A DNA stretch of 64,000 bases from Streptomyces sp. NBC_01439 (GTDB taxonomy: Bacteria; Actinomycetota; Actinomycetes; Streptomycetales; Streptomycetaceae): NCBI RefSeq assembly GCF_036227605.1, contig NZ_CP109487.1, positions 4,407,501 to 4,471,500 of the forward strand, read 5' to 3'. Of the stretch, positions 26,628-44,725 are shown in pieces. Numbering within the stretch: position 1 is the first letter of the stretch; each line of letters opens with the position of its first letter. The translations under genes and the position numbers were made by a program. The notes beneath the pieces are model-generated. The model ran no database searches, had not been told where the DNA came from, and saw nothing but the letters and a program-made list of their open reading frames with translations.

Positions 26628-29153
<2,526 letters not shown>

Positions 29154-29374
29154 CGTTTATCGCTCCTCAGAGCGGTCGGGCAGTTCGGGGTCGGTCCCCG
29201 CCTGTCCTTCCGCATGCTAGTCCCGCGGGGCGGGACAGCTCATTCCAACTGCCGACATCCGTCCGCGGCTCACCCCTGCATCAGCGGGAAAACCGGCTTG
29301 AAGAGCCGACAACTGCTCCAACTCGATGGTGCGAGACGATGTTCCCGCAGGCCAGGCAGATACCCGTCATGCGT

Positions 29375-29391
29375 GTACGCCGACGGCGAAC
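29375..29391 (-). promoter_or_regulatory. Candidate ClgR-binding site upstream of clpC
   Basis: On the clpC strand the sequence reads GTTCGC-CGTCG-GCGTAC, close to the published actinobacterial ClgR motif (GTTCGC, five bases, GCG). ClgR is known to activate clp genes, including clpC, in Streptomyces and Corynebacterium. The assignment is by motif and position. Confidence 0.5.
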
Positions 29392-29614
29392 GGATGCCCG
29401 TCAAATCAGCGTGTCGCCCCGATCCACTAGGAATGTCTTACCCGTAAGGACTGACACTCCATGCGGGCGCCACCGGTTCCCTCAGCTAAGGGCGAACACA
29501 GTTGCGCCTCGAATGTGGACTCCGTACTCCACGGATGTTTACGCTCCGCATGACGGTGAGTGCGGTGTGTCACATTGAGCGTAACCCTGCGGCCTTTCGG
29601 AAGTTGCTCCGGAC

Positions 29615-30247
29615 ATGGCCGTAACCGTCCCGTCGCTCGCCCCGTCGACCGTGCCGCCGCCCCGCCCGGCGCCCGAGGAGGACGCGTGCGCCTCCTGGTA
29701 CCGGAGAGTGCTCGGCTGGACCGTCCTGGGCGGGCCGCCCGCCCAGCTCGCGACCGGGAGCCGGTTCGACGTGCTGGAGCTGCCGTCCGACGCGGGGGCC
29801 GCCCTGCTGCGCAGGCCGGTCGCCACGGGCCCGGTGGCCCTGATGGGGCGCCGGATGCGGTTCCTGGTGGCCGCGGGGAGCGCAGAGGAGCTCGACGGGC
29901 TGCTCGACTGGCTGGAGTGGGGCGGGGTCGCCCTCGATCTCGCCGCCCTGGGTGCGGGTGGCCGGATCACCGCCCCGGTGCCGCCGGGGCATTGCGTACG
30001 GGACGGGAGTCCCCGGGGGGCCGCCGTGTGGCTACGGCCCCCCGAGCAGGGGTGCGAGGCACTTCTGCCTGCCCTGTCCGGTCCCGGACAGGGCGCCGGT
30101 CCCGGGCGGGTGGGCGCCGGGCCCGATCTCGTGCGCCTGGTCTCCGCGGCGGCGACGGAATGTCACCGCGCGCGGCTCCGGCGCCGTACGCCCCTGCGGA
30201 GCGCCGTGGCCGGGCCTCCCTCGCGGGCCGGCCGGGTCAGTCCCTGA
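29615..30247 (+). CDS. Conserved protein resembling the N-terminal part of Streptomyces prim-pol-like proteins
   Basis: A 210-aa protein, soluble, Pro-rich at the N-terminus. The core, LATGSRFDVLELPSDAGAALLRRPVATGPVALMGRRMRFLV and VAAGSAEELDGLLDWLEWGGVALDL, resembles from memory the N-terminal region of the actinobacterial bifunctional DNA primase/polymerase-like family, but acidic catalytic residues of a working primase are not evident. It is divergent from clpC and its stop lies 4 bp from the convergent lsr2 stop. Real gene by coding bias; function not established. Confidence 0.7.
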   Translation: MAVTVPSLAPSTVPPPRPAPEEDACASWYRRVLGWTVLGGPPAQLATGSRFDVLELPSDAGAALLRRPVATGPVALMGRRMRFLVAAGSAEELDGLLDWLEWGGVALDLAALGAGGRITAPVPPGHCVRDGSPRGAAVWLRPPEQGCEALLPALSGPGQGAGPGRVGAGPDLVRLVSAAATECHRARLRRRTPLRSAVAGPPSRAGRVSP

Positions 30248-30251
30248 CGGG

Positions 30252-30587
30252 TCAGCCCCGGTTCTCGTATTGGTCGCGGATCTCCTGCGGCACGCGACCG
30301 CGGTCGTTGACGCTGAGGCCCTGGGACTTCGCCCAGGCGCGGATCTCCGCGGTGTCCGGGTTGCCGGACGCCACGGCCGTGCGGCCCTTGGCGCGGCCGG
30401 TGGACGCGCGGCCACCGGTACGCCGGCCGCCCTTGGTGTACGGGTCGAGCAGACCGCGGAGCTTTTCAGCGTTGGCGGTGGTGAGGTCGATCTCGTAGGT
30501 CTTGCCATCCAGAGCGAACGTCACCGTCTCGTCCGCCTCGCCGCCGTCGAGGTCGTCGACAAGAAGGACCTGAACCTTCTGTGCCAC
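30252..30587 (-). CDS. lsr2: Lsr2 nucleoid-associated protein
   Basis: Xenogeneic silencer that binds AT-rich DNA and bridges it. The 111-aa protein has the N-terminal oligomerisation domain (MAQKVQVLLVDDLDGGEADETVTFALDGKTYEIDLTTANAEKLRGLLDPY) and the C-terminal DNA-binding helix pair with the AT-hook-like RGR in SVNDRGRVPQEIRDQYEN, joined by a basic linker. The initiation region is preceded by an AT-rich leader. Streptomyces has two Lsr2 proteins; this one sits at the classical clpC-proximal locus. Confidence 0.96.
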   Translation of the reverse strand: MAQKVQVLLVDDLDGGEADETVTFALDGKTYEIDLTTANAEKLRGLLDPYTKGGRRTGGRASTGRAKGRTAVASGNPDTAEIRAWAKSQGLSVNDRGRVPQEIRDQYENRG

Positions 30588-30752
30588 CGGGATTTCCTTT
30601 CATCGAAAAGCAGTACGCGGAAAGGAAACCGCTTTTGCCTGGAAAACACAAACCCCCGGTGAGAGGTTCGAGACCGCAACAGGGCGGGAAACGTACGCGA
30701 TTCGGACATAGGCCACAGGTGCGCAGAGCGCCGGAAAAGCTGAGGCCATCGA

Positions 30753-31283
30753 TCAGAGGTGCAGAAGCATCCGACTGTTGCCCAAGGTGTTCGGCTTCAC
30801 TCGTTCGAGACCGAGGAACTCGGCGACACCCTCGTCATAGGAACGCAGCAGCTCCATGTAGACATCGGTCTTGACCGGTGTCTCGCCGATCTCGACGAAG
30901 CCGTGCTTCGCGAAGAACTCGACTTCGAAGGTGAGGCAGAAAACCCGGCTCACCCCGAGGGTGCGGGCGGTGCGCAACAACTGCTCCAGTACCTGATGCC
31001 CGACTCCGGCGCCCTTCAAGCCCCGATCGACGGCGAGAGTGCGCACTTCGGCAAGGTCTTCCCACATCACGTGGAGAGCGCCGCAGCCGACGACCTGGCC
31101 GTCGGAGTCGCGTTCCGCGACCCAGAACTCCTGGATGTCCTCGTAAAGGACGACCGGAGCTTTGTCGAGCAGGATCCGCTGCTGCACGTACTGGTCGAGG
31201 AGGCGGCGCAGCGCGGGAACATCACGCGTCCGGGCACGGCGGATCGTCACTGTTTCTGCATGTGCAGTGGAAAACTCTCCCAT
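30753..31283 (-). CDS. Amino-acid N-acetyltransferase (ArgA-like GNAT)
   Basis: A 176-aa single GNAT domain similar to mycobacterial ArgA, which acetylates glutamate as the first step of arginine synthesis. Visible are VTIRRARTRDVPALRRLLDQYV (N-terminal strand and helix), VVGCGALHVMWEDLAEVRTLAVDRGLKGAGVGHQVLEQLL (acetyl-CoA loop R/G-x-x-G-x-G), and VSRVFCLTFEVEFFAKHGFVEIGE. The start ATG at 31283 gives MGEFSTAHAETVTIRRA. It precedes lsr2 on the same strand but with its own 165-bp gap. Substrate inferred from family. Confidence 0.85.
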   Translation of the reverse strand: MGEFSTAHAETVTIRRARTRDVPALRRLLDQYVQQRILLDKAPVVLYEDIQEFWVAERDSDGQVVGCGALHVMWEDLAEVRTLAVDRGLKGAGVGHQVLEQLLRTARTLGVSRVFCLTFEVEFFAKHGFVEIGETPVKTDVYMELLRSYDEGVAEFLGLERVKPNTLGNSRMLLHL

Positions 31284-31294
31284 GGCTGCGGACG

Positions 31295-31747
31295 TTATCG
31301 CCCCGGCTCCTGCGGGCGCTCGTCGGACTCCCCCTCGGCCACGGGCGGAGCGGGGGGTTCGGGGGCGGCGTCGGCGCCCGACTCGTCGTCGTACTGGACG
31401 ACCCGCACGGCGTCCCGGAGGGCTTCCCGCTGTTCCGCGGACATCATGCCGAAGAAGGCCACGAGGGCGGCCGCGGGGTTGTCGCTCGTCGACCAGGCTT
31501 CGTTCATCAGTGCGGCCGAGTAGGCGGCGCGGGTGGAGACCGCCGTATATCGATAGGCGCGGCCTTCGGCTTCCCGGCGCACCCAGCCCTTCTGATGGAG
31601 ATTGTCCATAACGGTCATGACCGTGGTGTACGCGATGGACCGTTCCTGCTGGAGGTCTTCCAGTACTTCTCGCACGGTGACCGGGCGGTTCCACTGCCAC
31701 ACCCGCGTCATGACGGCGTCTTCGAGTTCTCCCAGGGGGCGAGGCAC
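31295..31747 (-). CDS. BlaI/MecI/CopY family repressor
   Basis: A 150-aa regulator using GTG 31747. The winged HTH is typical: LGELEDAVMTRVWQWNRPVTVREVLEDLQQERSIAYTTVMTVMDNLHQKGWVRREAEGRAYRYTAV. The C-terminal dimerisation part is followed by an acidic/Pro tail (about 120-150). Characterised relatives control beta-lactamase, copper or respiratory genes and are inactivated by a membrane protease (BlaR) or a metal; no such partner is next to it. It ends 12 bp before the GNAT gene start, so they may be co-transcribed. Confidence 0.88.
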   Translation of the reverse strand: MPRPLGELEDAVMTRVWQWNRPVTVREVLEDLQQERSIAYTTVMTVMDNLHQKGWVRREAEGRAYRYTAVSTRAAYSAALMNEAWSTSDNPAAALVAFFGMMSAEQREALRDAVRVVQYDDESGADAAPEPPAPPVAEGESDERPQEPGR

Positions 31748-31848
31748 ACCAGCACGATAGTGCGGCTTGTGCTGAATTGCCTGGCTACTCGCTCGGCAAC
31801 GCGCCAGAAAAACGGGCGCACGGCCAGTGAAGCCGTACGCCCCGAAGG

Positions 31849-32016
31849 TTACTTCTGCTGCTGCTGGGTGGCTTCGGCCCGGGCGAGCACGGCATCGACC
31901 GCCGCGTCCTCCTTGGCCTTGTTGGAACCGCCCTGGCTCTTCACGATCGTCATGACGAGAGCGATGAAGAACACGGCCATCACGAAGGGGGGCACGAGCG
32001 CGGAGACATAGTCCAT
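31849..32016 (-). CDS. Small single-span membrane protein
   Basis: A 55-aa ORF that is easily missed. It reads MDYVSALVPPFVMAVFF... with one hydrophobic helix (about residues 6-25), then KSQGGSNKAKEDAAVDAVLARAEA and a tail of four Gln before a final Lys. The amphipathic, charged C-terminal half is likely cytoplasmic. A similar small protein occurs in the same chromosomal context in other Streptomyces as I recall. No RBS of note is visible. Function unknown. Confidence 0.65.
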   Translation of the reverse strand: MDYVSALVPPFVMAVFFIALVMTIVKSQGGSNKAKEDAAVDAVLARAEATQQQQK

Positions 32017-32030
32017 GCCCCACAGCGTAG

Positions 32031-32624
32031 CTACCCGGCGGCCAGCCCGGCCGCCGGGGGCGGGCTGGGCTTGCGGCGCGGCGGGAACACCTCACCAGGG
32101 GTCGGAATCGGCCGCTCCGGGCGGGGCGGCTCCTTGGGGTGCGGAGCCGGGCGGGCCGGCGGCTCGTCCTGCTCCTTGCCGCCGGCCAGGGCCAGCAGCC
32201 GGGTGCGGGGCGCCGGGGCCGTCGACAGCCGCCTGCGCACGGAGCGCTCCGCGACCGTCCGGACCCGTTCCAGTAGGGCGGCGGCGACCGGATTGGCGCG
32301 CAGCGCGCGCAGGGCGGCGAGGTCGTCGGGCTCCGGTTCGTACCCGGCGGCCAGGGCGTCCTGCAGCAGCTCCAGGTAGCCGGAGAGACTGCCGGGCAGG
32401 GCGCCGCGGTAGCGGGCGAGGTCCGCGAGGAGGAACGCTCTGAGCCGACCCGCCTCCTGGACCGCTTCGTCCACCGACTGCGCGAGGCGCAGGCAGTCCT
32501 GGACCTCCTCGGCCGCCAGGGGGGCCGAGGAGGACTGAAGGGCGTGGGCGAGGAGGCGCCTGAGCAGGTGCAGCTCAGCGGCACTGAACGCCATGCCGCC
32601 GCGGGATCCGTAGGGCGTGGGCAT
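32031..32624 (-). CDS. Conserved actinobacterial protein of unknown function
   Basis: A 197-aa, mainly helical protein. Residues about 11-125 (MAFSAAELHLLRRLLAHALQSS, VQDCLRLAQSVDEAVQEAGRLRAFLLADLARYRGALPG, YLELLQDALAAGYEPEPDDLAALRALRANPVAAALLERV) form a helical repeat-like domain, followed by a Pro/Arg-rich tail (about 150-197). The ATG at 32624 is used; a second ATG (32594) is an alternative. Close to, but not overlapping, the small membrane protein gene downstream. No named family recognised. Confidence 0.7.
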   Translation of the reverse strand: MPTPYGSRGGMAFSAAELHLLRRLLAHALQSSSAPLAAEEVQDCLRLAQSVDEAVQEAGRLRAFLLADLARYRGALPGSLSGYLELLQDALAAGYEPEPDDLAALRALRANPVAAALLERVRTVAERSVRRRLSTAPAPRTRLLALAGGKEQDEPPARPAPHPKEPPRPERPIPTPGEVFPPRRKPSPPPAAGLAAG

Positions 32625-32692
32625 GGGCCGAAGATACGCGCTAATCGGACAAAATCCCCTGTATTGCGGGTGTGGCGCGCTCGGCGGGTACC

Positions 32693-32878
32693 TCAGCCGG
32701 TCTCTTTGACCGCCCGCAGGAAGTCGGCCCAGGCGGCCTGGGTGGTGGCGAGCACGAGGTGCGCGGGGTCGGCGCGGTCGGCGACCTTGACGAGGGCTCC
32801 GGGGGCGGTGGCGACGTAGACGCAGGCGTCGCCCTCGCTGCAGAACGAGGACTTCCGCCACGCGGGCTGAGCAGTCAT
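32693..32878 (-). CDS. DUF397 small protein
   Basis: A 61-aa protein with the DUF397 hallmark WRKSSFCSEGDACVYVA near the N-terminus and AAWADFLRAVK at the end. In Streptomyces such proteins are encoded next to DUF5753-type HTH regulators and are thought to modulate them. Here the partner is missing from the neighbourhood, so this is an orphan copy. Start ATG 32878; GGAG lies 6-9 nt before it. Confidence 0.88.
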   Translation of the reverse strand: MTAQPAWRKSSFCSEGDACVYVATAPGALVKVADRADPAHLVLATTQAAWADFLRAVKETG

Positions 32879-33045
32879 GGTGTCTCCTCCGGGCACGGTG
32901 GCCGGTAATTGCCGTCAATGACGGTAACGCCGCGGCCGGCTCGCGCCGGTGCCTTTCGGGAATTCGGTGTTTCGCCGCTTCCCTCCCGGGGGGGACGGGT
33001 ACCGCTGCGCGGGCTCGTCCCCGCCCCGCCCTTTCGCCGTTTCCC

Positions 33046-33091
33046 GGGGCCCCGCCCCGGACCCCGCGCCTCAAACGCCGGCGAGGCTGGG
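33046..33091. repeat. Dispersed intergenic repeat, copy B
   Basis: Second copy of the 46-bp element at 17723-17768 (41 of 46 bases identical, with CAAA replacing GAAG in the middle). It lies 29 bp from the stop of the aldolase-like gene, in the same 3'-end location type as copy A. Confidence 0.6.
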
Positions 33092-33119
33092 GTTCCGGGC
33101 CGGATCCGCAAGGCGCCCC

Positions 33120-34250
33120 CTAGATGCGGGCCACGAAGGCCGAAACCGCTTCGTGGACGTCGGACTGCGTCCAGGACAGTCCCGGCTGCGTGATTTCCAG
33201 TTCCGTCACCGCGAGGCCCGGCGGGCCGTCGGCGGACCAGCGGCGGAAGAGGACCGTGCCCGTCTCCTCGGCCTGTCGCAGGCCCGCCTCCGTCAGCCGG
33301 TCCGCCTCGTACGGGAGCCACACCTGGAACTGGTGGGTGTGCGGCTCCTCCGGGTTGATCCGGGCCCACGGGACCCCCGAATCCGCGAACGCCGAGCGCA
33401 GCGCCCCGGCCACCAGCCGCGCCTGGGCCACGTAAGACGGCAGCCGGGGCAGTTCCCGTTCCAGTCCGACGAGCGCCGAGAGGGCCTGCGGGAACTGCCG
33501 GAAGATCTGGCCGCCGTAGCGGTGCCGCCAGACCCGGGTCTCCTCCACGAACTCCCGCGGCCCCGCCAGGGCCGCCCCGCTGAGGCCGCCGAGCGACTTG
33601 TAAAAGGAGACGTAGACGGAGTCCGCGAGGCCCGCGATCTCGGGCAGGGTGCGGCCGAAGTGGACGGTGGACTCCCACAGCCGGGCCCCGTCGAAGTGGA
33701 CGACCGCGTCCCGTTCCCGGGCCGCTTCGGTGAGCGCCTCCAGCTCCTCCCAGGTGGGCAGCAGGAAGCCCGCTTCCCGCAGGGGCAGCTCCACCATCAG
33801 CGTGCCGAAGGGCTCCCGGAGCGCCTCGACGTCCGCGGCCGACGGCGGGCGGGCCTCCGTGGTCGGGTGCGTCACCCGCAGCCCGGAGACCGTCGACAGG
33901 GCGTCTCCCTCCCACCGCTCCGGATGGCTCATCGGGTGCAGGGCCACCACCGGGTTCCCGGTCCGGCCCGCCCAGCACCGCAGCGCGATCTGCTGGGCCA
34001 TCGTGCCGGTGGGGAAGAACGCCGCGTCCTCGGTCCCTAGCAGCTCGGCGACCTTGCGCTCCAGTGCGGTGACGACCCCGTCGCCGTAGACATCGGCCGG
34101 CCCGTCCATGTCGTACGGAGCATCGGCGAGCGAGCCGAGCAGCTCCCCCACGGTGGGCTCCAGCAGGCTGCGGGACAGCCTCCGCTCCGCCCCGCGCCAG
34201 GCCGCGACCAGCCGCTTCGTACGTTCGGTGTCCTCGCTGTCATCACTCAT
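33120..34250 (-). CDS. Threonine aldolase-like PLP enzyme (beta-eliminating lyase family)
   Basis: A 376-aa fold-type I PLP enzyme of the low-specificity threonine aldolase/beta-eliminating lyase group, probably cleaving a beta-hydroxy amino acid to glycine and an aldehyde. Visible are the cofactor-stacking region GTEDAAFFPTGTMAQQIALRCWAG, the PLP-binding Asp in VVHFDGARLW, and the Schiff-base Lys in VYVSFYKSLGGLSGAALAG. The N-terminal segment MDGPADVYGDGVVTALERKVAELL is also typical. Start ATG 34250 (an ATG 13 codons upstream is possible). Divergent from the cofactor operon. Confidence 0.85.
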   Translation of the reverse strand: MSDDSEDTERTKRLVAAWRGAERRLSRSLLEPTVGELLGSLADAPYDMDGPADVYGDGVVTALERKVAELLGTEDAAFFPTGTMAQQIALRCWAGRTGNPVVALHPMSHPERWEGDALSTVSGLRVTHPTTEARPPSAADVEALREPFGTLMVELPLREAGFLLPTWEELEALTEAARERDAVVHFDGARLWESTVHFGRTLPEIAGLADSVYVSFYKSLGGLSGAALAGPREFVEETRVWRHRYGGQIFRQFPQALSALVGLERELPRLPSYVAQARLVAGALRSAFADSGVPWARINPEEPHTHQFQVWLPYEADRLTEAGLRQAEETGTVLFRRWSADGPPGLAVTELEITQPGLSWTQSDVHEAVSAFVARI

Positions 34251-34361
34251 GGGGAAAGATCCTCGCTCCTGTCGCCGCCGACCGGCCAACTGCCCCAGGA
34301 GCTAGCATGGCGGCGTATCGTCCGGTACCCCCGCGGACTGGAACGGAAGGGCCTCCCCCGC

Positions 34362-35273
34362 GTGAATTCATCACAGCAGCCACGCCCTGCCCGGCTCGCC
34401 GTCGGCGTCGTCGGTGCCGGCCGCGTCGGTCCCGCGCTGGCGTGTGCGCTCCAGCAGGCCGGGCACCGGCCCGTCGCCGTCTCCGGAGTCTCCGACACGT
34501 CCGTGCGCCGGGCCGAGCGGATGCTGCCCGACGTGCCGCTCGTACCGCCCGCGCAGGTGCTGGAGCTGGCCGACCTGGTGCTCCTGACCGTCCCCGACGA
34601 CGCGCTGCCGTCCCTCGTGGAGGGCCTCGCCGAGACCGGCGCGGTCCGGCCGGGACAGCTGCTGGTGCACACCTCGGGACGGTACGGGACCTCCGTGCTC
34701 GACCCCGCGCGCCGCGCGGGCGCCCTGCCGCTGGCCCTGCACCCGGCGATGACCTTCACCGGCACTGAGGTCGACGTGCAGCGGCTCGCCGGCTGTTCCT
34801 TCGGGGTCACCGCCCCCGAGGAGCTGCGCCTGGCCGCCGAGGCCCTGGTCATCGAGATGGGCGGGGAGCCCGAGTGGATCCGGGAGGAGAACCGGCCGCT
34901 CTACCACGCGGCCCTGGCCCTCGGCGCGAACCACCTGGTCACGCTGGTCGCCCAGGCCATGGAGCTGCTGGCCAAGGCCGGGGTGGAGCACCCCGACCGG
35001 ATGCTCGGCCCGCTGCTCGGCGCGGCCCTGGACAACGCCCTGCGCTCCGGTGACGCCGCCCTGACCGGGCCGGTGGCCCGCGGGGACGCCGGTACGGTCA
35101 GGGCGCACGTCTCGGAGCTGCGGCGGCACGCGCCCGCCGCGGTCGCCGGGTACCTGGCGATGGCCCGTACGACCGCGGACCGGGCCCTCGCGCACGGGCT
35201 GCTCAAGCCCGAGCTCGCCGAGGACCTCCTCGGTGTGCTCGCCGACACGGAGTCCGACGGGGGCGACCAGTGA
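34362..35273 (+). CDS. Rossmann-like DUF2520 oxidoreductase
   Basis: A 303-aa protein. The N-terminal dinucleotide fold shows [24 protein letters not shown] (GxGxxG) and [17 protein letters not shown]; the C-terminal DUF2520 domain (about 145-295) has [39 protein letters not shown] and [15 protein letters not shown]. The fold is that of ProC, ketopantoate reductase and 6PGDH relatives. Start GTG 34362; it overlaps panC by 4 nt (GTGA), so it is the first gene of the pantothenate/NAD operon. A role as a NAD(P)H-dependent step in pantothenate synthesis is plausible but unproven. Confidence 0.85.
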
Positions 35274-36262
35274 CCGACCTGCTGCTGCACACCGCTGAGG
35301 AGCTGCACAAGCTGTCGCGCACCGGCCGCCGGGCCGTGGTGATGACCATGGGCGCCCTTCACGAGGGCCACGCCACCTTGATCCGCACGGCCCGCGAACA
35401 GGCCGGGCCGGGCGGGCAGGTCGTCGTCACCGTTTTCGTCAACCCCCTGCAGTTCGGGGCCGGCGAGGACCTCGACCGCTACCCCCGCACCCTCGATGCC
35501 GATCTGCGGATCGCCGAAGGGGCGGGTGCCGACGCCGTGTTCGCCCCGGCGGTCGACGAGGTCTACCCGGGCGGCGACCCGCAGGTGCGGATCAGCGCCG
35601 GCCCGATGGGCGAGCGGCTCGAAGGGGCCACCCGCCCGGGGCACTTCGACGGGATGCTGACCGTCGTCGCCAAGCTGCTCCACCTCACCCGCCCCGACCT
35701 GGCCCTCTTCGGCCAGAAGGACGCGCAGCAACTGGCCCTGATCCGGCGGATGGTGACCGACCTGAACTTCCCCGTCGAGGTGGTCGGCGTACCGACCGTC
35801 CGCGAGGAGGACGGGCTCGCGCTGTCGTCCCGCAACCGCTACCTCTCCCCCGCGGAGCGGCACACCGCCCTGGCGCTGTCCCGCGCCCTGTTCGCCGGCC
35901 GCGACCGGCTCGCCGCGCAGGCGGCGCTGCGCGCCCGCGCCGAGGCCTCCCCGGCCAGCGACGAGCGGGCCACCGCCCTGGCCCGCCTCGGCGAGATCCG
36001 CGCCTCCGCCGACGCGCACGCCGTCTCGGTGGCCGGCGCCGGTCTGCCGGACGCCGTACGGGCCGCCGCGCTGCACGTCCTGGACGAGGCGGGCCGCCAC
36101 GAGCCGCCGCTCGCGCTGGACTACCTGGCGCTGGTGGACCCGCTGGACTTCACCGAGACCGGTCCGGACTTCACCGGGCGGGCCGTGCTGGCCGTCGCCG
36201 CGAAGGTGGGCTCGACCCGGCTGATCGACAACATCCCATTGGAATTCGGAGCACACTCGTGA
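35270..36262 (+). CDS. panC: Pantothenate synthetase
   Basis: Joins pantoate and beta-alanine with ATP to give pantothenate. The 330-aa protein has the ATP HIGH-like motif in [71 protein letters not shown] and the KMSKS-like LSSRNRYLS. The C-terminal domain is slightly expanded with an Ala-rich insertion (about 205-245). Starts GTG 35270 within the preceding stop and overlaps nadB by 4 nt. Confidence 0.95.
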
Positions 36263-38010
36263 GCACCCCAGGCAGAGGCATCCCGTCGGACGGGGCAGGC
36301 GAAGGCACCGGCATACGGCTGCACGCCCCGGCCCCCGGCTGGTCCCTCGACGCCGACGTCGTGGTCGTCGGTTCCGGCGTGGCGGGCCTGACGGCCGCGC
36401 TGCGCTGCGCCGCCGGGGGCCGCCGTACCGTCGTGGTCACCAAGGCCCGGCTCGACGACGGCTCCACCCGCTGGGCCCAGGGCGGTATCGCCGCGGCCCT
36501 CGGCGAGGGCGACACCCCGGAGCAGCACCTCGACGACACGCTGGTCGCCGGTGCGGGCCTGTGCGACGAGGAGGCCGTCCGGCTGCTCGTCACCGAGGGC
36601 CCCGACGCCGTACGGCGGCTGATGGCCGCCGGCGCGGTCTTCGACACCTCGACGGAGACCGGCGAGATAGAGCTGACCCGCGAGGGCGGACACCACCGCC
36701 GCCGGATCGCGCACGCGGGCGGCGACGCCACCGGCGCCGAGATCTCCCGGGCGCTCGTCGAGGCCGTCCAGGCCGCGGGCATCGAGACCGTGGAGAACGC
36801 CCTCGTCCTGGACCTGCTGCAAGACGCGCAGGGTCGTACGGCCGGTGTCACCCTGCACGTCATGGGCGAGGGCCAGCACGACGGGGTGGGCGCCGTGCAC
36901 GCGCCCGCCGTGATCCTCGCGACCGGCGGCATGGGCCAGGTCTTCTCCGCGACCACCAACCCGTCGGTGTCCACCGGTGACGGCGTCGCGCTCGCGCTGC
37001 GGGCCGGCGCCGAGGTCTCCGACCTCGAGTTCGTACAGTTCCACCCGACGGTGCTCTTCCTCGGCCCGGACGCCGAGGGACAGCAACCGCTGGTGTCGGA
37101 GGCGGTCCGGGGCGAGGGTGCGTACCTCGTCGACGCGGACGGCGTGCGCTTCATGCAGGGCCAGCACGAGCTCGCCGAGCTGGCGCCGCGCGACATCGTC
37201 GCCAAGGGCATCATGCGCCGCATGCTGGAGCAGGGCGCGCAGCACATGTACCTCGACGCCCGGCACTTCGGCGCGCAGATGTGGGAGCAGCGCTTCCCGA
37301 CCATCCTGGCCGCCTGCCGTTCCCACGGCATCGACCCGGTGACCGAGCCCGTCCCGGTGGCGCCCGCCGCGCACTACGCGTCCGGCGGCGTCCGCACCGA
37401 CCTGCACGGGCGGACCACCGTCCCCGGCCTGTACGCCTGCGGCGAGGTCGCCTGCACCGGTGTGCACGGCGCGAACCGGCTGGCCTCCAACTCGCTGCTG
37501 GAGGGTCTGGTCTTCGCCGAGCGGATCGCCGAGGACATCGTCGCCGAGCGGCCCGCGGGCAGCGGCCCGGGCATACCGGTCCCGGCGACCGGCCCGCTGC
37601 AGCCCGGCGCGGCCCGGTACGAGGTCCAGCGGATCATGACGGAGGGCGCGGGCGTGCTCCGCTCCGCCGACTCGCTCAGTGCCGCGGCCGACGCCCTCGA
37701 AGCGCTGTACGCCACCGCCCTGAACGACCTCGAAGCGCACGGCAAGACCGCCGAGCCGGGCGTGGACACCTGGGAGGCCACGAACCTGCTGTGCGTGGCG
37801 CGGGTCCTGGTCGCCGCGGCGCAGCGGCGCGTGGAGACCCGCGGCTGCCACTGGCGCGAGGACCACCCCGAGCGGGACGATGCCCACTGGCGCCGCCATC
37901 TCGTCGTCCGGCTCTCGGCGACCGAGAAGCGCGCCCTGGTCGTCGTACCCACCGACTCCGCGGACTTCCCGTCCGTGCACCCCCTGAGCACCCCGAGCCT
38001 GGAGCAGTGA
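36259..38010 (+). CDS. nadB: L-aspartate oxidase
   Basis: FAD enzyme that oxidises aspartate to iminoaspartate, the first committed NAD precursor. The 583-aa protein has the FAD motif [44 protein letters not shown], the substrate-site [58 protein letters not shown], and a C-terminal helical domain. The start is GTG 36259 in the overlap with panC. Note that quinolinate synthase (nadA) is not in this operon. Confidence 0.95.
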
Positions 38011-38012
38011 CC

Positions 38013-38981
38013 GTGAGCACCCCCGAACTTCCCCTGATCGACCAGAACGACGGCGGCTGCGGCGACGACTGCGCCTGTGGTGACGGCGAGGAGAGCGGCC
38101 TGGACCCGGCGCTGGCGCAGCTGCTCGCCGACGCCGGCCTGGACCCGATCGAGGTCGAGGACATCGCGCACATGGCGCTGTCCGAGGACCTGGACGGCGG
38201 CGTGGACGTGACGACGGTGGCGACCGTGCCCGAGGAGGCCGAGGCCGTCGCCGACTTCGTCGCGCGCGAGGACGGTGTCGTGGCCGGTCTGCGGATCGCC
38301 GAGGCCGTGTTCTCCGTGGTCTGCACGGAGGCCTTCGAGGTGGAGCGGCACGCGGAGGACGGCGACTCCGTCGTGGCCGGGCAGCTGCTGCTGTCCGTGC
38401 GCTCGCGCACCCGTGACCTGCTCACGGCGGAGCGCAGCGCGCTGAACATCCTGTGCCGGCTGTCGGGCATCGCGACGGCCACCCGCCGCTGGGCCGACGT
38501 GCTGGAGGGCACCTCGGCGAAGGTCCGCGACACCCGCAAGACCACGCCGGGCCTGCGCTCGCTGGAGAAGTACGCGGTGCGCTGCGGCGGCGGCGTCAAC
38601 CACCGGATGTCGCTCGCGGACGCGGCGCTGGTCAAGGACAACCACGTGGTGGCGGCGGGCGGTGTCGCCCAGGCGTTCAAGGCCGTGCGCGAGGCCTTCC
38701 CCGAGGTTCCGATCGAGGTCGAGGTCGACACGCTGGAGCAGATCGGCGAGGTGCTGGAGGCCGGCGCCGACCTGATCCTGCTGGACAACTTCACGGTCGA
38801 GCAGACCGCCGAGGCCGTGGCCCTGGTGGCCGGCCGCGCGGTGCTGGAGTCCTCGGGCCGCCTGACCCTGGATTCGGCCCGCGCGTACGCGGCGACCGGC
38901 GTGGACTACCTGGCGGTCGGCGCGCTGACCCACTCCTCGCCGATCCTGGACATCGGGCTCGATCTGCGCGAGGCGGTGTAA
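38013..38981 (+). CDS. nadC: Nicotinate-nucleotide pyrophosphorylase (quinolinate phosphoribosyltransferase)
   Basis: Converts quinolinate and PRPP to nicotinate mononucleotide. About 322 aa. After a Cys/Asp-rich N-terminal extension (NDGGCGDDCACGDGEE) the family core appears: DPIEVEDIAHMALSEDLDGGVDVTTVATVP, RDLLTAERSALNILCRLSGIATATRRW, DTRKTTPGLRSLEKYAVRCGGGVNHRMSLADAALVKDNH, IEVEVDTLEQ and LLDNF. GTG 38013 is preferred (GGAG 9 nt before it); GTG 38007 overlaps the nadB stop and is an alternative. Confidence 0.95.
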   Translation: MSTPELPLIDQNDGGCGDDCACGDGEESGLDPALAQLLADAGLDPIEVEDIAHMALSEDLDGGVDVTTVATVPEEAEAVADFVAREDGVVAGLRIAEAVFSVVCTEAFEVERHAEDGDSVVAGQLLLSVRSRTRDLLTAERSALNILCRLSGIATATRRWADVLEGTSAKVRDTRKTTPGLRSLEKYAVRCGGGVNHRMSLADAALVKDNHVVAAGGVAQAFKAVREAFPEVPIEVEVDTLEQIGEVLEAGADLILLDNFTVEQTAEAVALVAGRAVLESSGRLTLDSARAYAATGVDYLAVGALTHSSPILDIGLDLREAV

Positions 38982-38984
38982 CCC

Positions 38985-39794
38985 GTGCTCCTCACCATCG
39001 ACGTGGGCAACACCCACACGGTCCTGGGGCTGTTCGACGGTGCCGAGATCGTCGAGCACTGGCGCATCTCGACCGACCCGCAGCGCACGGCCGACGAGAT
39101 GGCCGTGCTCCTGCAGGGGCTGATGGGCATGCACCCGATGCTGGGCAGCGAGCTGGGCGACGGCATCCACGGCATCGCGATCTGCTCGGCGGTGCCGTCG
39201 GTCCTGCACGAGCTCCGCGAGGTGACCCGCCGCTACTACGGCGACGTGCCCGCGGTGATCGTGGAGCCCGGCACCAAGACGGGCGTGCCGATCCTGATGG
39301 ACAACCCGAAGGAGGTCGGCGCGGACCGCATCGTGAACGCGGTCGCGGTGGTCGAGCTCTACGGGGGCCCGGCGATCGTGGTCGACCTCGGTACGGCGAC
39401 CACCTTCGACGCGGTGTCCGCGAGGGGTGAGTACGTGGGCGGGGTGATCGCCCCGGGCATCGAGATCTCGATGGAGGCGCTCGGCGTACGGGGTGCCCAG
39501 CTACGGAAGATCGAGCTGGCGCGGCCGCGCAACGTGATCGGGAAGTCCACGGTCGAGGCGATGCAGTCGGGCGTGGTCTACGGCTTCGCGGGGCAGGTCG
39601 ACGGGGTCGTGACGCGGATGGCGAAGGAGCTGGCGGGACCGCACGGCGACCCGGACGACGTGCGGGTCATCGCCACCGGCGGGCTGGCTCCGATGGTGCT
39701 GGGCGAGTCCTCGGTGATCGACGACCACGAGCCGTGGCTGACGCTGATCGGGCTGCGGCTGGTGTACGAACGCAACGCGCCGAAATTCGACTGA
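38985..39794 (+). CDS. coaX: Type III pantothenate kinase
   Basis: Phosphorylates pantothenate in the first step of CoA synthesis. The 269-aa acetate/sugar kinase-fold protein has MLLTIDVGNTHTVLGLFDG (phosphate 1 loop), GVPILMDNPKEVGADRIVNAVAV, and AIVVDLGTATTFDAVSARGEYVGGVIAPGI. Starts GTG 38985, 3 nt after the nadC stop. Its product and PanC act in sequence, so the operon links pantothenate production to its first use and to NAD synthesis. A hairpin follows the stop. Confidence 0.95.
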   Translation: MLLTIDVGNTHTVLGLFDGAEIVEHWRISTDPQRTADEMAVLLQGLMGMHPMLGSELGDGIHGIAICSAVPSVLHELREVTRRYYGDVPAVIVEPGTKTGVPILMDNPKEVGADRIVNAVAVVELYGGPAIVVDLGTATTFDAVSARGEYVGGVIAPGIEISMEALGVRGAQLRKIELARPRNVIGKSTVEAMQSGVVYGFAGQVDGVVTRMAKELAGPHGDPDDVRVIATGGLAPMVLGESSVIDDHEPWLTLIGLRLVYERNAPKFD

Positions 39795-39842: not shown

Positions 39843-40280
39843 TCAGGCACGGACTTCGACCCACAGCAGCTTCCCCCCGGCGTCCCCGTACAGCCCCGTC
39901 CCGCCGAGCGGATACCCGCCCCAGTTGGCGGCGTACGCCCGTACGAGGAAGAGTCCGCGGCCTCGCTCGGCACCCAACTGCGGTGTCCCGGAGGGGAAGT
40001 CCGCTCCGAAGGGCGGCGGGATGTGCGGATTGCTGTCCCAGACGCTGACCCGCAGCCGAGCGGGCCCCATGGCCCGCAGCCGGAGGGTGTACGGGCCGTC
40101 GGAGTAGAGATAGGCATTGGCCATCAGCTCCCCGGCCAGCAGCTCGGCCGTCTCGACGAGTGCGCTCATCGCGTGCGTCCGGAGCACGGAACGCAGGGTC
40201 TGGCGGGCGAGGCCGGGGGCGCGGGGATCCTGTGGGAGTTGCAGGCTGTAGGCCCACAACGGGGATACGGTGGCAGGCAT
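39843..40280 (-). CDS. ATP-binding protein of the RsbW-like HATPase type
   Basis: A 145-aa single GHKL ATPase domain as in anti-sigma factors of the RsbW/SpoIIAB type. Visible are ARQTLRSVLRTHAMSALVETAELLAGELMANAYLYSDGPYTLRLR (N-box with E and N) and RLRVSVWDSNPHIPPPF, then GRGLFLVRAYAANWGGYPL (G-box). Streptomyces has dozens of these, often beside a DUF397/HTH pair as here. Whether it binds a sigma factor is unknown. It reads towards the coaX terminator and is divergent from the HTH gene. Confidence 0.85.
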   Translation of the reverse strand: MPATVSPLWAYSLQLPQDPRAPGLARQTLRSVLRTHAMSALVETAELLAGELMANAYLYSDGPYTLRLRAMGPARLRVSVWDSNPHIPPPFGADFPSGTPQLGAERGRGLFLVRAYAANWGGYPLGGTGLYGDAGGKLLWVEVRA

Positions 40281-40480
40281 GGAAGTCTCCGATCACGGAG
40301 GGGTGTTGGTCGCATTGCACTTGCTGCCCGGTGACCGTGCCGCTCCGTCGAACGGGGTACTTCCGGGTGAGGTGGCCTGCGTCCCAGATTAGGGTCGCGC
40401 AAGTGTTATTTGCGCGAATCTCGCGAGATCCAGGCCTTCATTCGCTCGTGTGAGTGAGACAGCTGCCGGAAAGGAGTGCG

Positions 40481-41332
40481 ATGGCGGGGCGAGTTGCACT
40501 GACGGCCCGACGTATCCGTGTCGCCGTTGAGCTGCGCAAGCTGCGGGAACGCGCTGGGCTCACGGCAACCGAGGCTGCGCGTCAACTCGGCACCAGCCAG
40601 GGCCAGCTGAGCAATGTGGAGACGGGCAGATTCGGAGTCAGCCCCGAGCGTGTCCACGCCTTGGCCCAGGTGTACTCCGTGTGCGACCCCCTGCTCGTGG
40701 ACGCACTGTCCGCAATGGCCGGCGACCGTACGAAGGGCTGGTGGGAGGAGTACAGGGAGATCCTCCCGCAAGGCCTGCTCGACCTCGCCGAGCTGGAGCA
40801 CCACGGTCTGGCGCTGCGCGCCGCCTACACCGTCCACGTGCCCGGCCTGCTGCAGACGGCGGACCACGCCCGGGAGATCTTCGGACACGTGCTGCCACCG
40901 CTGCCCCAGGTCGATGTGGAGCACCGCGTAACCCACCGCATCAAACGGCAGGAAGTGCTCCACCGCGCCGATCCGGTCCCGTACACCGCGATCATCCACG
41001 AGGCGGCCCTGCGCATGAAGTTCGGCGGACACTCCGTCGTGAAGGCACAGCTGGCCCACTTGCTGGCGATGGGGGAACTGGACCACGTCCGGATTCTGGT
41101 GATCCCCTTCGACGCGGGTTCTTTTCCGGGATCAGGCCAGTCGATCTACTACGTCCACGGGCCCGTGGCACAGCTCGACACCGTCCACCTCGACCAGTCC
41201 CACGGCCCCGCCCTGGTCGACGCCGAAGCCCAGCTCGCCAAGTACCGGCTGCTTCTGGACCGCATGGAGGGCGCGGCCCTCGCCTGCGGGAAGAGCCGGG
41301 ATTTCATCCACAGCATCCTGCGCGCCCTGTGA
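40481..41332 (+). CDS. Helix-turn-helix regulator of the DUF5753 (WhiJ-like) type
   Basis: A 283-aa XRE-type regulator. The HTH (about residues 14-70) reads VELRKLRERAGLTATEAARQLGTSQGQLSNVETGRFGVSPERVHALAQVY. The larger DUF5753 part (about 95-275) contains AYTVHVPGLLQTADHAREIF, HEAALRMKFGG, VKAQLAHLLAMGELDHVRILVIPFDAG and LDQSHGPALVDAEAQLAKYRLLLDRMEGAAL. The family includes WhiJ-like developmental regulators. ATG 40481 has AAGGAG 5 nt before it. The DUF397 partner gene follows after 14 bp. Confidence 0.9.
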   Translation: MAGRVALTARRIRVAVELRKLRERAGLTATEAARQLGTSQGQLSNVETGRFGVSPERVHALAQVYSVCDPLLVDALSAMAGDRTKGWWEEYREILPQGLLDLAELEHHGLALRAAYTVHVPGLLQTADHAREIFGHVLPPLPQVDVEHRVTHRIKRQEVLHRADPVPYTAIIHEAALRMKFGGHSVVKAQLAHLLAMGELDHVRILVIPFDAGSFPGSGQSIYYVHGPVAQLDTVHLDQSHGPALVDAEAQLAKYRLLLDRMEGAALACGKSRDFIHSILRAL

Positions 41333-41346
41333 ACCGAGGAGCACCC

Positions 41347-41538
41347 ATGACTCAGCCCCGCTGGCGAAAGTCGTCGTTCTGCCAGGAGGGAGAGGCCTGC
41401 GTGCACGTCGCGACAGCCGGACCCGACGCGGCCGTGAACGTGGCCGGCAGCGCCGATCCCGGCGAGACGTACCTGACCGTCTCCCCGGTCGCCTGGTCGG
41501 ACTTCCTCCAAGCCGTGAAAAACCCCGGCGCCGTCTGA
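41347..41538 (+). CDS. DUF397 small protein, partner of the upstream HTH regulator
   Basis: A 63-aa protein with RWRKSSFCQEGEACVHVATAG and VAWSDFLQAVK, the DUF397 signature. Encoded 14 bp after the DUF5753 regulator gene, in the usual pairing. In characterised WhiJ-type systems the small protein is thought to relieve or modulate the regulator. Confidence 0.9.
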   Translation: MTQPRWRKSSFCQEGEACVHVATAGPDAAVNVAGSADPGETYLTVSPVAWSDFLQAVKNPGAV

Positions 41539-41618: not shown

Positions 41619-42035
41619 ATGGTGGACGTGGGGGTGAGCGAGCTGCGCCGGAGCCGCGAGCGACTCGCCAAGCAGGGGGAGGCCGCCGAGCAGGCGGGGG
41701 AGAACGCGGTCAGCGGACTACTGCTCTTCTACGCTGCCGAGTGCGGATTGAAGGCTGAGCTGCCGCGCTGGGTTCTGCGCTGCGAGGACACGTCCTCCTT
41801 GCCCAGCGACCTGCAGACGCACGATCTGCGCCGCTTGGCCAAGGCCTTGAACCTCCAGGATCCCGCCCCTGGGCCGGATCCGTTGCGCTGCCATAGGCAC
41901 AAGAACGGCGCCTGGATCGAGAGCCACGAGTTGCATGAAGCATGGCGCTATGGTGCAGAACTGCGCGCCGATGATCAGAAAGCGGCGGTGGAAGCTCTGA
42001 AGTCACTGGTGGAGGACGCCAGGAAGGGATCTTGA
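41619..42035 (+). CDS. Small HEPN-like helical protein coupled to the KGGVGR ATPase
   Basis: A 138-aa, all-helical, soluble protein. SGLLLFYAAECGLKAELPRWVL (about 32-53) and HDLRRLAKALNL (68-79) match the pattern of HEPN-type domains, which often act as RNases or dimeric scaffolds in toxin and defence systems. The catalytic R-x4-6-H of nucleolytic HEPN proteins is not clear: the nearest candidates are R90-C-H-R-H94 and the H104/H107 region, so it may be a non-catalytic scaffold. The stop overlaps the next gene's TTG, and the ATPase starts within 6 nt. Codon use is less GC-biased than in neighbours. The function is inferred only by context. Confidence 0.55.
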   Translation: MVDVGVSELRRSRERLAKQGEAAEQAGENAVSGLLLFYAAECGLKAELPRWVLRCEDTSSLPSDLQTHDLRRLAKALNLQDPAPGPDPLRCHRHKNGAWIESHELHEAWRYGAELRADDQKAAVEALKSLVEDARKGS

Positions 42036-42040
42036 GCGCT

Positions 42041-44725
42041 ATGACCGGCAAGCTCTTCACCTGGGTCGACATCGATTCCCGACTTGCAGAAGCTGCTGTG
42101 GAGGGCCGGTGGCCGCAGTGGCTGCTGGAGGTCGATGCCTGGTGGGACGGGCTGGAGCTGACAGTCCTCCCGGGTACTGGGACCGCCGCCGTACACGAAT
42201 GGCTGGACGGACAGTTCGGTCTCGGATCCACCGCCGAAGACGGAATGGGCCTGGAACTCGCCCTGGACCGACCAACGGCCAACGCTCCCCAGTTCCTTCC
42301 CGTGCGCCTGGTCGAAGCCGCCGATTCCGGCGCACTCCCCCACCGCCGCCCAAAGCTCAGCGAGCGCCGTGTCACCTCGGCTCTGAGCGAGGCGCTCCCC
42401 CGCCCGGAGGTCTCACAGTTCGCCGGTGGCAAGCAGCTCACCGCCTTCCACTCCTTCAAGGGCGGCGTGGGACGCACACTGCACGCGGTGGCGCTGGCCG
42501 ATCTCCTCGCTTCCCAAGGACAGCACGTCCTTCTCGTCGACGCCGACCTGGAGGCGCCTGGCATCACCTGGATGTACCAGGCGCAAGGGGGCCGCTGCGA
42601 CATCGCGTACGAGGACCTCCTCGCCCTCCTGCACTCCTCACGGCAGGGCGACCCCACGCAGGCGGTGGAAATCGCCGCCGCCTACCTGCCCAACCAGCGG
42701 GTCTCGCGCTATCCCGGGACAGGACGCGTGACAGTCCTTCCGGCCAGTCGGCGCGTGCGGCTCGGTCCGCCCCGGATCGGGCCCGCCGACCTGCTGACCG
42801 AGGACCGCTCGCCGTACTTCCTCAGTGAGTCCCTGGTAGCCCTCGCCAACGCCGCCGAGGCCGACACCGTCGTACTGGACCTCCGTGCCGGAGCTTCGGA
42901 GCTCGCAGCGCCCATCCTGTTGGACCCCCGTGTGATGCGGGTGTTCGTCACTACGATCAGCAGTCAGTCCCTGCAAGGCACCGAAGCCATGATCCAGCAG
43001 CTCGGGGCTCAGTCCCCGGCAGTGGTGGGAACGGATCCCACCCCTGCCGCGATCGTGACGCAGTACCGGCTCGACATCCATGACGCCCATGCCGAAGAAG
43101 CCCGCAGGGGACTCTCCGCAGCGCTGTCGTCCACGATCGTCCTGCCCGGCATGATTTCTGACGAGTACACGCCCGAGGATCTGGCAGTGGATGAGCAGGT
43201 CCTGACCGAGCCTGTGCTGAGTCCGTTCCGCGAGGAGCTGCTGGCGCTTCCCCGCAGCTGGGACGCTGTGGTGGAGGTGATCCGGCGCTGTGGTCTCCCC
43301 GGTCTGCTCACCGAATTCACCCCAAGCGTCGTGCCGACCGCCCCGCCTCGTTCCGAGGGGCGGGCCACGCTGGACGACAGACGGCGTGCCTTGGAGAGCA
43401 CCGCACGCCGACTCGTCTTCGCCGAGCAGCGCGGTATGGATTCGGGGCTCGGATTCCTCACCACCGAGCCGGTACGCCGACTTATCGCGGATCACAGCAC
43501 CGACCTTCCGATCGCGGTCGTCGTCGGCGCGAAAGGTGCGGGTAAGACGTTCACCTTCGCCAGGATGTGCACTGCGGGGACCTGGGAGGCGTTCGCCCGG
43601 GAGAACGGGCAGAACGTGGAACGGCGAGCGATCGTGATCCCTGTTCTGGACCCGGCCAACATCGCTGAGCCTCAGGCGGGAGTGGTGTCGCCGCAGGAGC
43701 TCAGGGACCGCGCGGCACGGGGGCCAGGCGTCACCGCGGACGAGATCCGAAGCCACCTGAACGCCGCACTCAAGGACAAGCGCTCCGATGATCCGGAGTT
43801 CTGGCGGCTGCGCTGGCTGGAGTGTCTGGCATGGTCGGCAGGCGCCGAACGGGGTGAACCCGCTGAGGAATTCCTCATCGAGCGGACTCTGGACCCCTCT
43901 GGGGCCTGCCTCTTCGTCATCGACGGCTTGGAGGACTGGCTGGAGTCACTGGAGGCGGAACCAAGGCGCATCGCGCTGCGGACGCTGCTGATCGAGGTTC
44001 CGGCCTGGCTCCGTCGGCTTCGCCATCGCTCGCTCGGCCTCGTGATCTTCGTCCGCCAAGACTTGGTACGCGCGGCGATCAGGCAGAACTTCGGCCAGTT
44101 CCTCGACCGCTACGCACCCTATGAGCTGCGCTGGAACACCGAGGACGCCCTCCGGCTGCCACTGTGGCTGGCGATGAACGCTGAGGCGTTGCCGACCGCC
44201 GATCTTCCGATCGCCGACATGGGCTACGACGAGATCGTCCAGGCACTCCTCCCCCTCTGGGGCGCGAAGCTCGGGACCGACAACTCCCGCGAGGCGTGGA
44301 CCGAACGATGGGTTCCGGTCGCCCTTGGAGACTTCAACGAACAGATTCAGGCTCGCGATGTCGTCCGCTTCGTGCGCGAGGCGGCGCTCGCTTCCGTGGG
44401 CGATGCGAAATGGCCGGACAGATTGCTGACCCCGGTGGCCATGCGGCGCGCCCTGAGCGCGTGCAGCCGTGCGAAGGTAGAGGAGATCAACCAGGAGAAT
44501 CCGCTGCTCGGAGCGCTGCTGAGGCGCATGTCGACTTTTTCGGACTCCGTGAAGATGCCCTTCGACGCGGCGGACGTGGAACTGACGGCCGACGACGTCG
44601 AAGCCCTGGGGCAGTGGGGTGTACTGGCCCGAGACATCGACGGGCGTTACCGCATGCCCGAGATCTATCGCCACGCGCTCGGCTTCCGCACGCAAGGCAG
44701 GGCTCGGGTGGTCCGGAGTCTATGA
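42041..44725 (+). CDS. Large dual-NTPase protein with KGGVGR-variant P-loop
   Basis: An 894-aa soluble protein. The N-terminal 120 residues are unassigned (WVDIDSRLAEAAVEGRWPQWLLEVDAWW). A MinD/ParA-like domain follows with FHSFKGGVGRT (about 137-146), VLLVDADLEAPG (Walker A'/B region) and VVLDLRAG; the R of KGGVGRT replaces the usual K. A second P-loop AAA/STAND-like domain starts at about 475 with AVVVGAKGAGKTF (496-503) and Walker B CLFVIDGLEDWLE (about 627). The C-terminal 250 residues are helical. Such KGGVGR ATPases occur in predicted conflict systems. Start ATG 42041 (TTG 42032 in the overlap is an alternative). Codon use is less GC-rich than in the surrounding core genes. Confidence 0.7.
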   Translation: MTGKLFTWVDIDSRLAEAAVEGRWPQWLLEVDAWWDGLELTVLPGTGTAAVHEWLDGQFGLGSTAEDGMGLELALDRPTANAPQFLPVRLVEAADSGALPHRRPKLSERRVTSALSEALPRPEVSQFAGGKQLTAFHSFKGGVGRTLHAVALADLLASQGQHVLLVDADLEAPGITWMYQAQGGRCDIAYEDLLALLHSSRQGDPTQAVEIAAAYLPNQRVSRYPGTGRVTVLPASRRVRLGPPRIGPADLLTEDRSPYFLSESLVALANAAEADTVVLDLRAGASELAAPILLDPRVMRVFVTTISSQSLQGTEAMIQQLGAQSPAVVGTDPTPAAIVTQYRLDIHDAHAEEARRGLSAALSSTIVLPGMISDEYTPEDLAVDEQVLTEPVLSPFREELLALPRSWDAVVEVIRRCGLPGLLTEFTPSVVPTAPPRSEGRATLDDRRRALESTARRLVFAEQRGMDSGLGFLTTEPVRRLIADHSTDLPIAVVVGAKGAGKTFTFARMCTAGTWEAFARENGQNVERRAIVIPVLDPANIAEPQAGVVSPQELRDRAARGPGVTADEIRSHLNAALKDKRSDDPEFWRLRWLECLAWSAGAERGEPAEEFLIERTLDPSGACLFVIDGLEDWLESLEAEPRRIALRTLLIEVPAWLRRLRHRSLGLVIFVRQDLVRAAIRQNFGQFLDRYAPYELRWNTEDALRLPLWLAMNAEALPTADLPIADMGYDEIVQALLPLWGAKLGTDNSREAWTERWVPVALGDFNEQIQARDVVRFVREAALASVGDAKWPDRLLTPVAMRRALSACSRAKVEEINQENPLLGALLRRMSTFSDSVKMPFDAADVELTADDVEALGQWGVLARDIDGRYRMPEIYRHALGFRTQGRARVVRSL

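Follow-up and report, generated by a model that had tools for sequence, protein, structure and literature searches.

A probable two-gene virus-defence module of a HEPN protein and a fused dual NTPase in Streptomyces and distant relatives

A pair of adjacent genes in Streptomyces sp. NBC_01439 (contig NZ_CP109487.1) probably constitutes a defence module of two genes, directed against phages and other mobile elements, in which a nucleoside triphosphatase (NTPase) gates a HEPN protein. The pair lies in a 64,000-nucleotide stretch, the whole of which was analysed and is called the window below; the host genome is a single contig of 9.58 Mb. Among the window's open reading frames (ORFs), one gene for 138 amino acids and one for 894 or 897 amino acids, on the same strand, form one operon-like unit, and the two-gene arrangement proposed by an earlier reading of the letters alone (the sequence-only reading) thus stands. 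The interpretation draws on gene order, predicted folds, an intact second P-loop, pairing across phyla, co-divergence and accessory distribution, and on the location of relatives, not of the window copy itself, in P2/P4 antiphage hotspots and Pgl-type islands. Since the HEPN and ATPase genes are strictly paired and relatives occupy known antiphage sites, the unit is probably a virus-defence switch. Its genes are as follows.

41619..42035, plus strand: HEPN-fold small protein, 138 amino acids, predicted effector (AlphaFold model, PDB fold matches)
42021..42029, plus strand: AGGAAGGGA, ribosome-binding-like stretch ahead of the ATPase start (read in the sequence)
42032..44725, plus strand: fused KGGVGR-SIMIBI and STAND/AAA-like NTPase, 897 amino acids, or 894 from ATG 42041 (ORF, matches to PADLOC PDC-M28B and PDC-M28C)

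The ATPase gene may start at TTG 42032, with a 4-bp overlap with the HEPN gene, or at ATG 42041, a position that holds ATG or GTG in 12 of the 12 close relatives compared. A similar purine-rich stretch precedes the ATPase start in 12 relatives.

Pairing, spread and co-divergence

Relatives of the ATPase were collected from GTDB contigs, and the best 80 of 151 confirmed ones were kept; genomes of the genus sample recur among these 80 loci (L048, L051, L087, L090). The loci span actinobacteria, cyanobacteria, Acidobacteria and Chloroflexi, and also include metagenome-assembled genomes of Limnochordaceae, of Desulfobacteraceae and of methanogen-group archaea (one, one and three, respectively). 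A HEPN profile, built from alignment A2 with its 89 sequences, finds a match directly upstream of the ATPase in 78 of the 80 named loci, bacterial and archaeal, which gives the recurrent pairing that the sequence-only reading had asked to be surveyed. The two exceptions are L089, which starts at the ATPase, and L117, which holds remnants only. In the genus sample, the HEPN gene adjoins the ATPase gene in all seven genomes with a full-length relative, the host's own included. A constant third gene was sought across the loci and none was found.

Moreover, the two proteins diverge together. HEPN and ATPase distances correlate with r = 0.93 over 75 pairs, a value reached by none of 1000 permutations; for distant pairs the coefficient is 0.85. 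The test excluded eight loci in which a gene is broken or missing, as well as two HEPNs added by hand. The pair is accessory, rare and patchy: full-length relatives are present in seven of the 199 genus genomes and in one of 296 from the phylum (E ≤ 1e-30). It is thus not part of the core of the genus, whereas core status with a housekeeping role would have refuted the proposal of the sequence-only reading.

The small HEPN protein

The AlphaFold model of the small protein reaches a predicted local distance difference test score (pLDDT) of 90.3 and a predicted template modelling score of 0.88, and its top PDB matches in the fold search are almost all HEPN domains. By its model, the small protein is a HEPN helical fold, and the HEPN likeness claimed from the letters alone is borne out. 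Sequence comparison is far less telling: the window HEPN has no Pfam match, a sequence-profile search of solved structures returned no HEPN at E ≤ 1, and 1 of 30 HEPN homologues reaches Pfam PF05168 (E 4.8e-4). The families matched by these 30 include no MAE-type HEPN, for which Pfam presumably holds a model. Three motifs are conserved, the counts being alignment rows with a letter at the position.

41739..41753, plus strand: E41-C42-x-x-K45 (Ex3K) motif of the HEPN protein, 77/77 rows
41820..41822, plus strand: His68, candidate catalytic histidine N-terminal to the Arg motif, 78/78 rows
41943..41951, plus strand: Trp109-Arg110-Tyr111 motif of the HEPN protein, 77/77 rows

The Ex3K motif is present in the E. 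coli and P2 copies as well. The canonical Rx4-6H motif is absent, in that alignments A1 and A2 contain no conserved Arg followed by a conserved His at that spacing. The invariant E41-x3-K45, H68 and R110 instead agree, at sequence level only, with the signature of the AbiV/AF0298 variant (Ex3[KR], an N-terminal His and an Arg). To our knowledge, the partner of AbiV is not a two-motor ATPase. Structural alignment of the window HEPN with AbiV/AF0298-type HEPN-T proteins gives sequence identities of 20% (2hsb) and 11% (9bj7). The position of His68 agrees with the alternative His of AbiV/AF0298-type HEPN described in the accessible part of PMC3710099.

A similar arrangement described in the same source is the MAE_18760 HEPN and ParA/Soj dyad (Anantharaman 2013, PMC3710099), in which a ParA-like ATPase gene likewise adjoins the HEPN gene. 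As far as the accessible part of that paper goes, the MAE_18760 HEPN family is tabulated with Rx4-6H kept, unlike the window HEPN, and the fusion of a second NTPase to the ParA-like domain belongs to the window pair and not to that dyad.

The dual NTPase

The large protein contains two P-loops in distinct domains, as the sequence-only reading had described: KGGVGRT within a MinD/ParA fold, and an intact GAKGAGKT with a Walker B.

42032..42391, plus strand: N-terminal alpha/beta region, residues ~1-120 (AlphaFold secondary structure)
42422..43333, plus strand: MinD/ParA (SIMIBI) fold, residues 131-434
42458..42478, plus strand: variant P-loop KGGVGRT, Arg148 replacing the P-loop Lys (R148 in 79/79 rows with a letter)
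43370..44722, plus strand: second P-loop NTPase and mainly helical C-terminus, residues 447-897 (hhalign to the PDC-M28C protein of L037)
43526..43549, plus strand: Walker A GAKGAGKT of the second NTPase, G499-T506 (K505 in 79/80 rows with a letter)

The large protein has the SIMIBI fold of MinD/ParA ATPases, and the matches listed by its fold search, of MinD type, cover residues 131-434 only. The deviant Walker A of MinD/ParA ATPases reads KGGxGK[ST], a pattern from which the large protein departs at Arg148. STAND NTPases carry a Walker A and a DGxED-type Walker B, and the second NTPase has both: its Walker B is D631-G632-x-E634-D635, with D631, G632, E634 and D635 each kept in at least 75 of 81 rows. 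Family models remain below their cut-offs here, namely NF047389 Sll1717 on the second NTPase (E 6e-8) and Pfam AAA_16 (E 0.011) and NACHT (E 0.22) on the large protein. Residues 1-120 have no Pfam match; their ten-residue mean pLDDT ranges from 48 to 91, with the minimum at 101-120.

A MinD/ParA fold raises the question of partition or maintenance, with the KGGVGR domain as a ParA-type partition ATPase and HEPN as its adaptor. This is highly improbable, and the least probable of the alternatives considered. The constant partner, in 78 of 80 loci, is the HEPN gene, and as nothing else recurs throughout, there is no fixed ParB-like partner. The Lys-to-Arg replacement in every row and the position of unfused relatives of the two halves in Pgl/BREX-type islands also speak against it, and a defence module remains the preferred reading.

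The genus sample contains many KGGVGR-domain matches. Apart from the seven full-length relatives, most genus matches (L008-L030) cover the KGGVGR domain only, many of them within ORFs of 1,300-1,700 amino acids, and no HEPN match was found in these 23 loci. The long proteins are perhaps conflict proteins of FxSxx-COOH/TIR type, the label FxSxx-COOH applying to some of them. MinD/ParA-like domains also occur in conflict systems, where they are predicted to be inactive according to the accessible part of Kaur 2020 (PMC7159879); the conflict proteins described there share this domain with the pair, while their partners differ and their ORFs are often longer.

Relation to PDC-M28 and Pgl/BREX-type islands

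The search against defence profiles gave a divided result. PADLOC models PDC-M28B (E 1.5e-15) and PDC-M28C (E 1.4e-10) match the two halves of the one large protein, and the window HEPN has no PDC-M28A match at E ≤ 1. PDC-M28 is a phage-defence candidate of PADLOC-DB 2.0.0 with parts A, B and C; there B and C are separate genes, whereas in the window both halves stand in the single ORF 42032-44725. Alignment by hhalign supports the correspondence, both for the large protein with the L037 B protein (probability 98.3, E 2e-14) and for residues 447-897 with the L037 PDC-M28C protein (probability 96.4, E 1.2e-9). For the small protein, hhalign to the L037 A protein gives a probability of 8, and nine of 30 HEPN homologues give weak matches to PDC-M28A models (E ≤ 0.1, best 4e-4).

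The claim that the system is undescribed therefore holds in part: no paper was found for the fused pair, but PADLOC already lists, as PDC-M28, a relative in which B and C are separate, and the pair is a two-gene fused variant of that candidate. The literature search returned no paper naming PDC-M28, the Sll1717 family or two E. coli WP accessions, and the string 'KGGVGR' only in unrelated work. PMC9122126, in its supplements, and PMC13092281 (DefensePredictor) may already list or test the fused pair. What is new here is the fused two-gene form, the HEPN identity, the alternative motif, the archaeal-to-satellite spread and the P2/P4 location put together.

In L037, PglX and PglW enclose separate genes for PDC-M28A, B and C, and unfused B- and C-type regions in L038 and L039 are flanked by PglX and PglW too. 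Among the 199 genus genomes, 16 strong M28C-type ATPases were found (E ≤ 2.3e-83), 11 of them adjoined by a KGGVGR match. For nine of the 16, a long PglW match is found no more than ~2 kb away; among these nine PglW genes, three are interrupted by an internal stop or split in two. Long PglW matches (≥ 1,100 bits) number at least 43 in at least 41 of the 199 genomes, a lower bound with few candidates per genome scored; by a rough estimate, the adjacencies expected by chance are far below one. Of the 80 fused loci, three (L079, L088, L091) have PglW in the flanks retrieved, and L079 and L088 have PglX as well; neither gene is found in any of 20 control windows, these being 10 kb long versus test flanks of up to 20 kb. 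Additionally, a Wadjet-type JetC lies near L089 and a type IIG enzyme near L081.

Enrichment of defence genes in the flanks was considered as well and is not used as proof, the family tallies not being decisive. The PADLOC scan matched 74 families in the flanks (142 of 169 genes) and 28 in control genes (141 of 168), with genes below 110 amino acids excluded; L112 was left out of the scan and L138 out of its control.

The host's own genome holds a second PDC-M28C/Sll1717-like ATPase near 3768443 (L168, E 3.6e-11), the apparently split N-terminal part of which has a transposase-like ORF beside it.

Coliphage satellites and a P2-like prophage

Relatives of the pair also travel on mobile elements. 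At DNA level, 11 of 5,426 E. coli genomes match it (68% identity; a lower bound), and in all ten records examined of these 11 the pair is flanked by int and psu within a P4-like satellite at tRNA-Leu; the copy in E. coli Ec1117 occupies 11235-14337 of L181. It is alone annotated in this interval in nine records, and an IS21 element is added in one. Profiles confirm both genes in four of the records, and the other six have the same protein accessions. The P2-like prophage contig L178 has the pair with the portal gene (phrog_68) on one side and the replication gene (phrog_91) on the other; of the 65 viral-collection entries that matched the pattern, this is the sole one encoding a relative. Klebsiella, Enterobacter, Salmonella and Pseudomonas records also contain close relatives of the L178 ATPase. 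Both the int-psu site of P4 and the portal-replication site of P2 are described as antiphage-system hotspots in the accessible part of PMC9122126. Together with the Pgl/BREX-type islands, these locations strongly support the conflict or anti-phage type that had been proposed from the gene arrangement.

In Microcystis phage Mic1 (MN013189, 8162-8794), a 'ParA family protein' is 29% identical to residues 464-681 of the P2-borne ATPase, a region within its second NTPase half.

Lesions in one partner and the addiction alternative

Broken copies bear on the direction of control. The HEPN gene is broken beside an intact ATPase in four of the 78 paired loci (L062, L094, L102, L108). The reverse is seen in E. 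coli NZ_AP021892, where the ATPase is in two frames (155 + 735 amino acids) and HEPN is intact, and in L099, where HEPN is likewise intact and a single in-frame stop truncates the ATPase. Four in-frame stops interrupt the L112 ATPase, and the HEPN of that locus is without its last residues. Sequencing error is possible in either direction; if real, an intact HEPN beside a broken ATPase makes a lethal toxin held by the ATPase unlikely, and an activator fits better.

These lesions bear on the view that the pair is a toxin–antitoxin system, in which a HEPN toxin silenced by a ParA-like ATPase antitoxin maintains its element without sensing phage. HEPN lesions with an intact ATPase are what a costly toxin would leave, and carriage on satellites and prophages fits addiction; a Klebsiella pneumoniae relative of the ATPase, P0287, is named plasmid-borne, despite the plasmid collection giving no match at E ≤ 1e-20, which itself counts against addiction. 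A two-motor protein of ~890 amino acids is unusual as an antitoxin. Two-gene dyads of HEPN and a ParA-like ATPase have been proposed as toxin–antitoxin systems (accessible part of PMC3710099). The loss of an antitoxin beside a live toxin should kill, however, so the reverse lesions in NZ_AP021892 (L180) and L099 argue against this view, which we regard as unlikely.

Proposed mechanism and weight of the evidence

Within the defence reading, the most likely mode of action is that of an NTP-gated HEPN ribonuclease (RNase) causing abortive infection, with the NTPase as sensor or activator. The dual NTPase, with its ATP-binding KGGVGR SIMIBI domain and STAND/AAA-like switch, would hold and gate the HEPN RNase. 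The cue could be infection or damage to a co-located BREX/Pgl system, upon which the NTPase would alter its nucleotide-bound state or oligomer and release a HEPN dimer to cut RNA. In effect, RNA cutting would stop growth before phage maturation. Each of these steps (RNase activity, direction of control, trigger and growth arrest) is proposed with less confidence than the defence role itself.

Several points weigh against a defence role. Genes that recur around the fused pair are ordinary ones and specific to particular clades, which places most copies outside any recognisable island, and no defence island was recognised around most Streptomyces copies. The PADLOC flank scan has no gene-wise count, with defence matches in both flank and control sets. 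Without Rx4-6H, HEPN catalysis could be lost. Annotated phage records give a partial match in one only, and none with the window query. The literature search found no activity test of the pair. Moreover, P2 hotspots also hold non-defence cargo, such as partition systems and a toxin, according to the accessible part of PMC9122126, and location alone is therefore no proof.

A broader synthesis, offered tentatively and rather doubtful as a whole, would see in the pair a pan-prokaryotic HEPN immune switch. Its SIMIBI clamp, with Arg in the P-loop, would bind ATP without turnover and be fused to a STAND-like trigger, and its HEPN would use an alternative His68/Arg110-Tyr111 active site; the switch would guard BREX/Pgl systems and arm P2/P4 elements. 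If true, NTP-gated HEPN RNases would gain a new mechanistic class, common to archaea, cyanobacteria, actinobacteria and coliphage satellites.

The E. coli annotations 'hypothetical protein' and 'ParA family protein' become a testable defence candidate across bacteria, archaea and coliphage satellites. For the MinD/ParA superfamily, the question arises why the P-loop Arg is constant from methanogens to Streptomyces, and the presence of a related module within Pgl/BREX-type islands suggests a back-up acting once the main system is inhibited.

The window locus and other genomic settings

Directly upstream of the pair, window positions 39843-41538 hold HATPase, DUF5753-HTH and DUF397 genes. The third-codon-position GC content is 0.80 in the HEPN and ATPase genes versus 0.96 in coaX and 0.95 in the M28 peptidase gene, and the upstream HATPase and DUF5753-HTH genes are intermediate (0.86 and 0.84). 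The HTH/DUF397 genes were also weighed as partners of the pair, an idea that was dismissed: S. yangpuensis L061, the closest named relative, keeps the association, but it is no general rule among other loci. The L061 ATPase is 92% identical and the arrangement is the same gene by gene, at 73-98%.

These neighbours would fit a stress- or development-linked regulator of filamentous actinobacteria with no direct antiviral role, in which HEPN binds RNA uncut, as would the missing Rx4-6H and a fixed locus in one actinobacterial subgroup. This explanation is very unlikely, given that such neighbours are not the rule, that the pair is rare and patchy, and that it also occurs in archaea, cyanobacteria and phage satellites.

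In five relatives (G012, G009, G005, G006, G004), coaX is followed by conserved genes towards what we take to be lsr2 and clpC, without HEPN or ATPase; tblastn found neither gene in the further relatives L146 and L148. At window positions 26628-39794, in comparison with the five relatives, the stretch running from the W32031 gene to clpC has the opposite orientation and has switched sides of panC-nadB-nadC-coaX. The coaX-side block having thus been inverted and moved across panC-coaX, the pair lies at a rearrangement breakpoint 3' of coaX.

Elsewhere, six loci of one actinobacterial subgroup (L050, L051, L054, L055, L067, L110) have the pair beside the same gene, presumably trehalose-phosphatase-like, as a fixed alternative site. 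A distant fused relative of 872 amino acids in L040 (5545-8549) has the P-loop SLRGGVGRT and its own HEPN gene; a transposase-like ORF on the other strand lies ~190 bp away.

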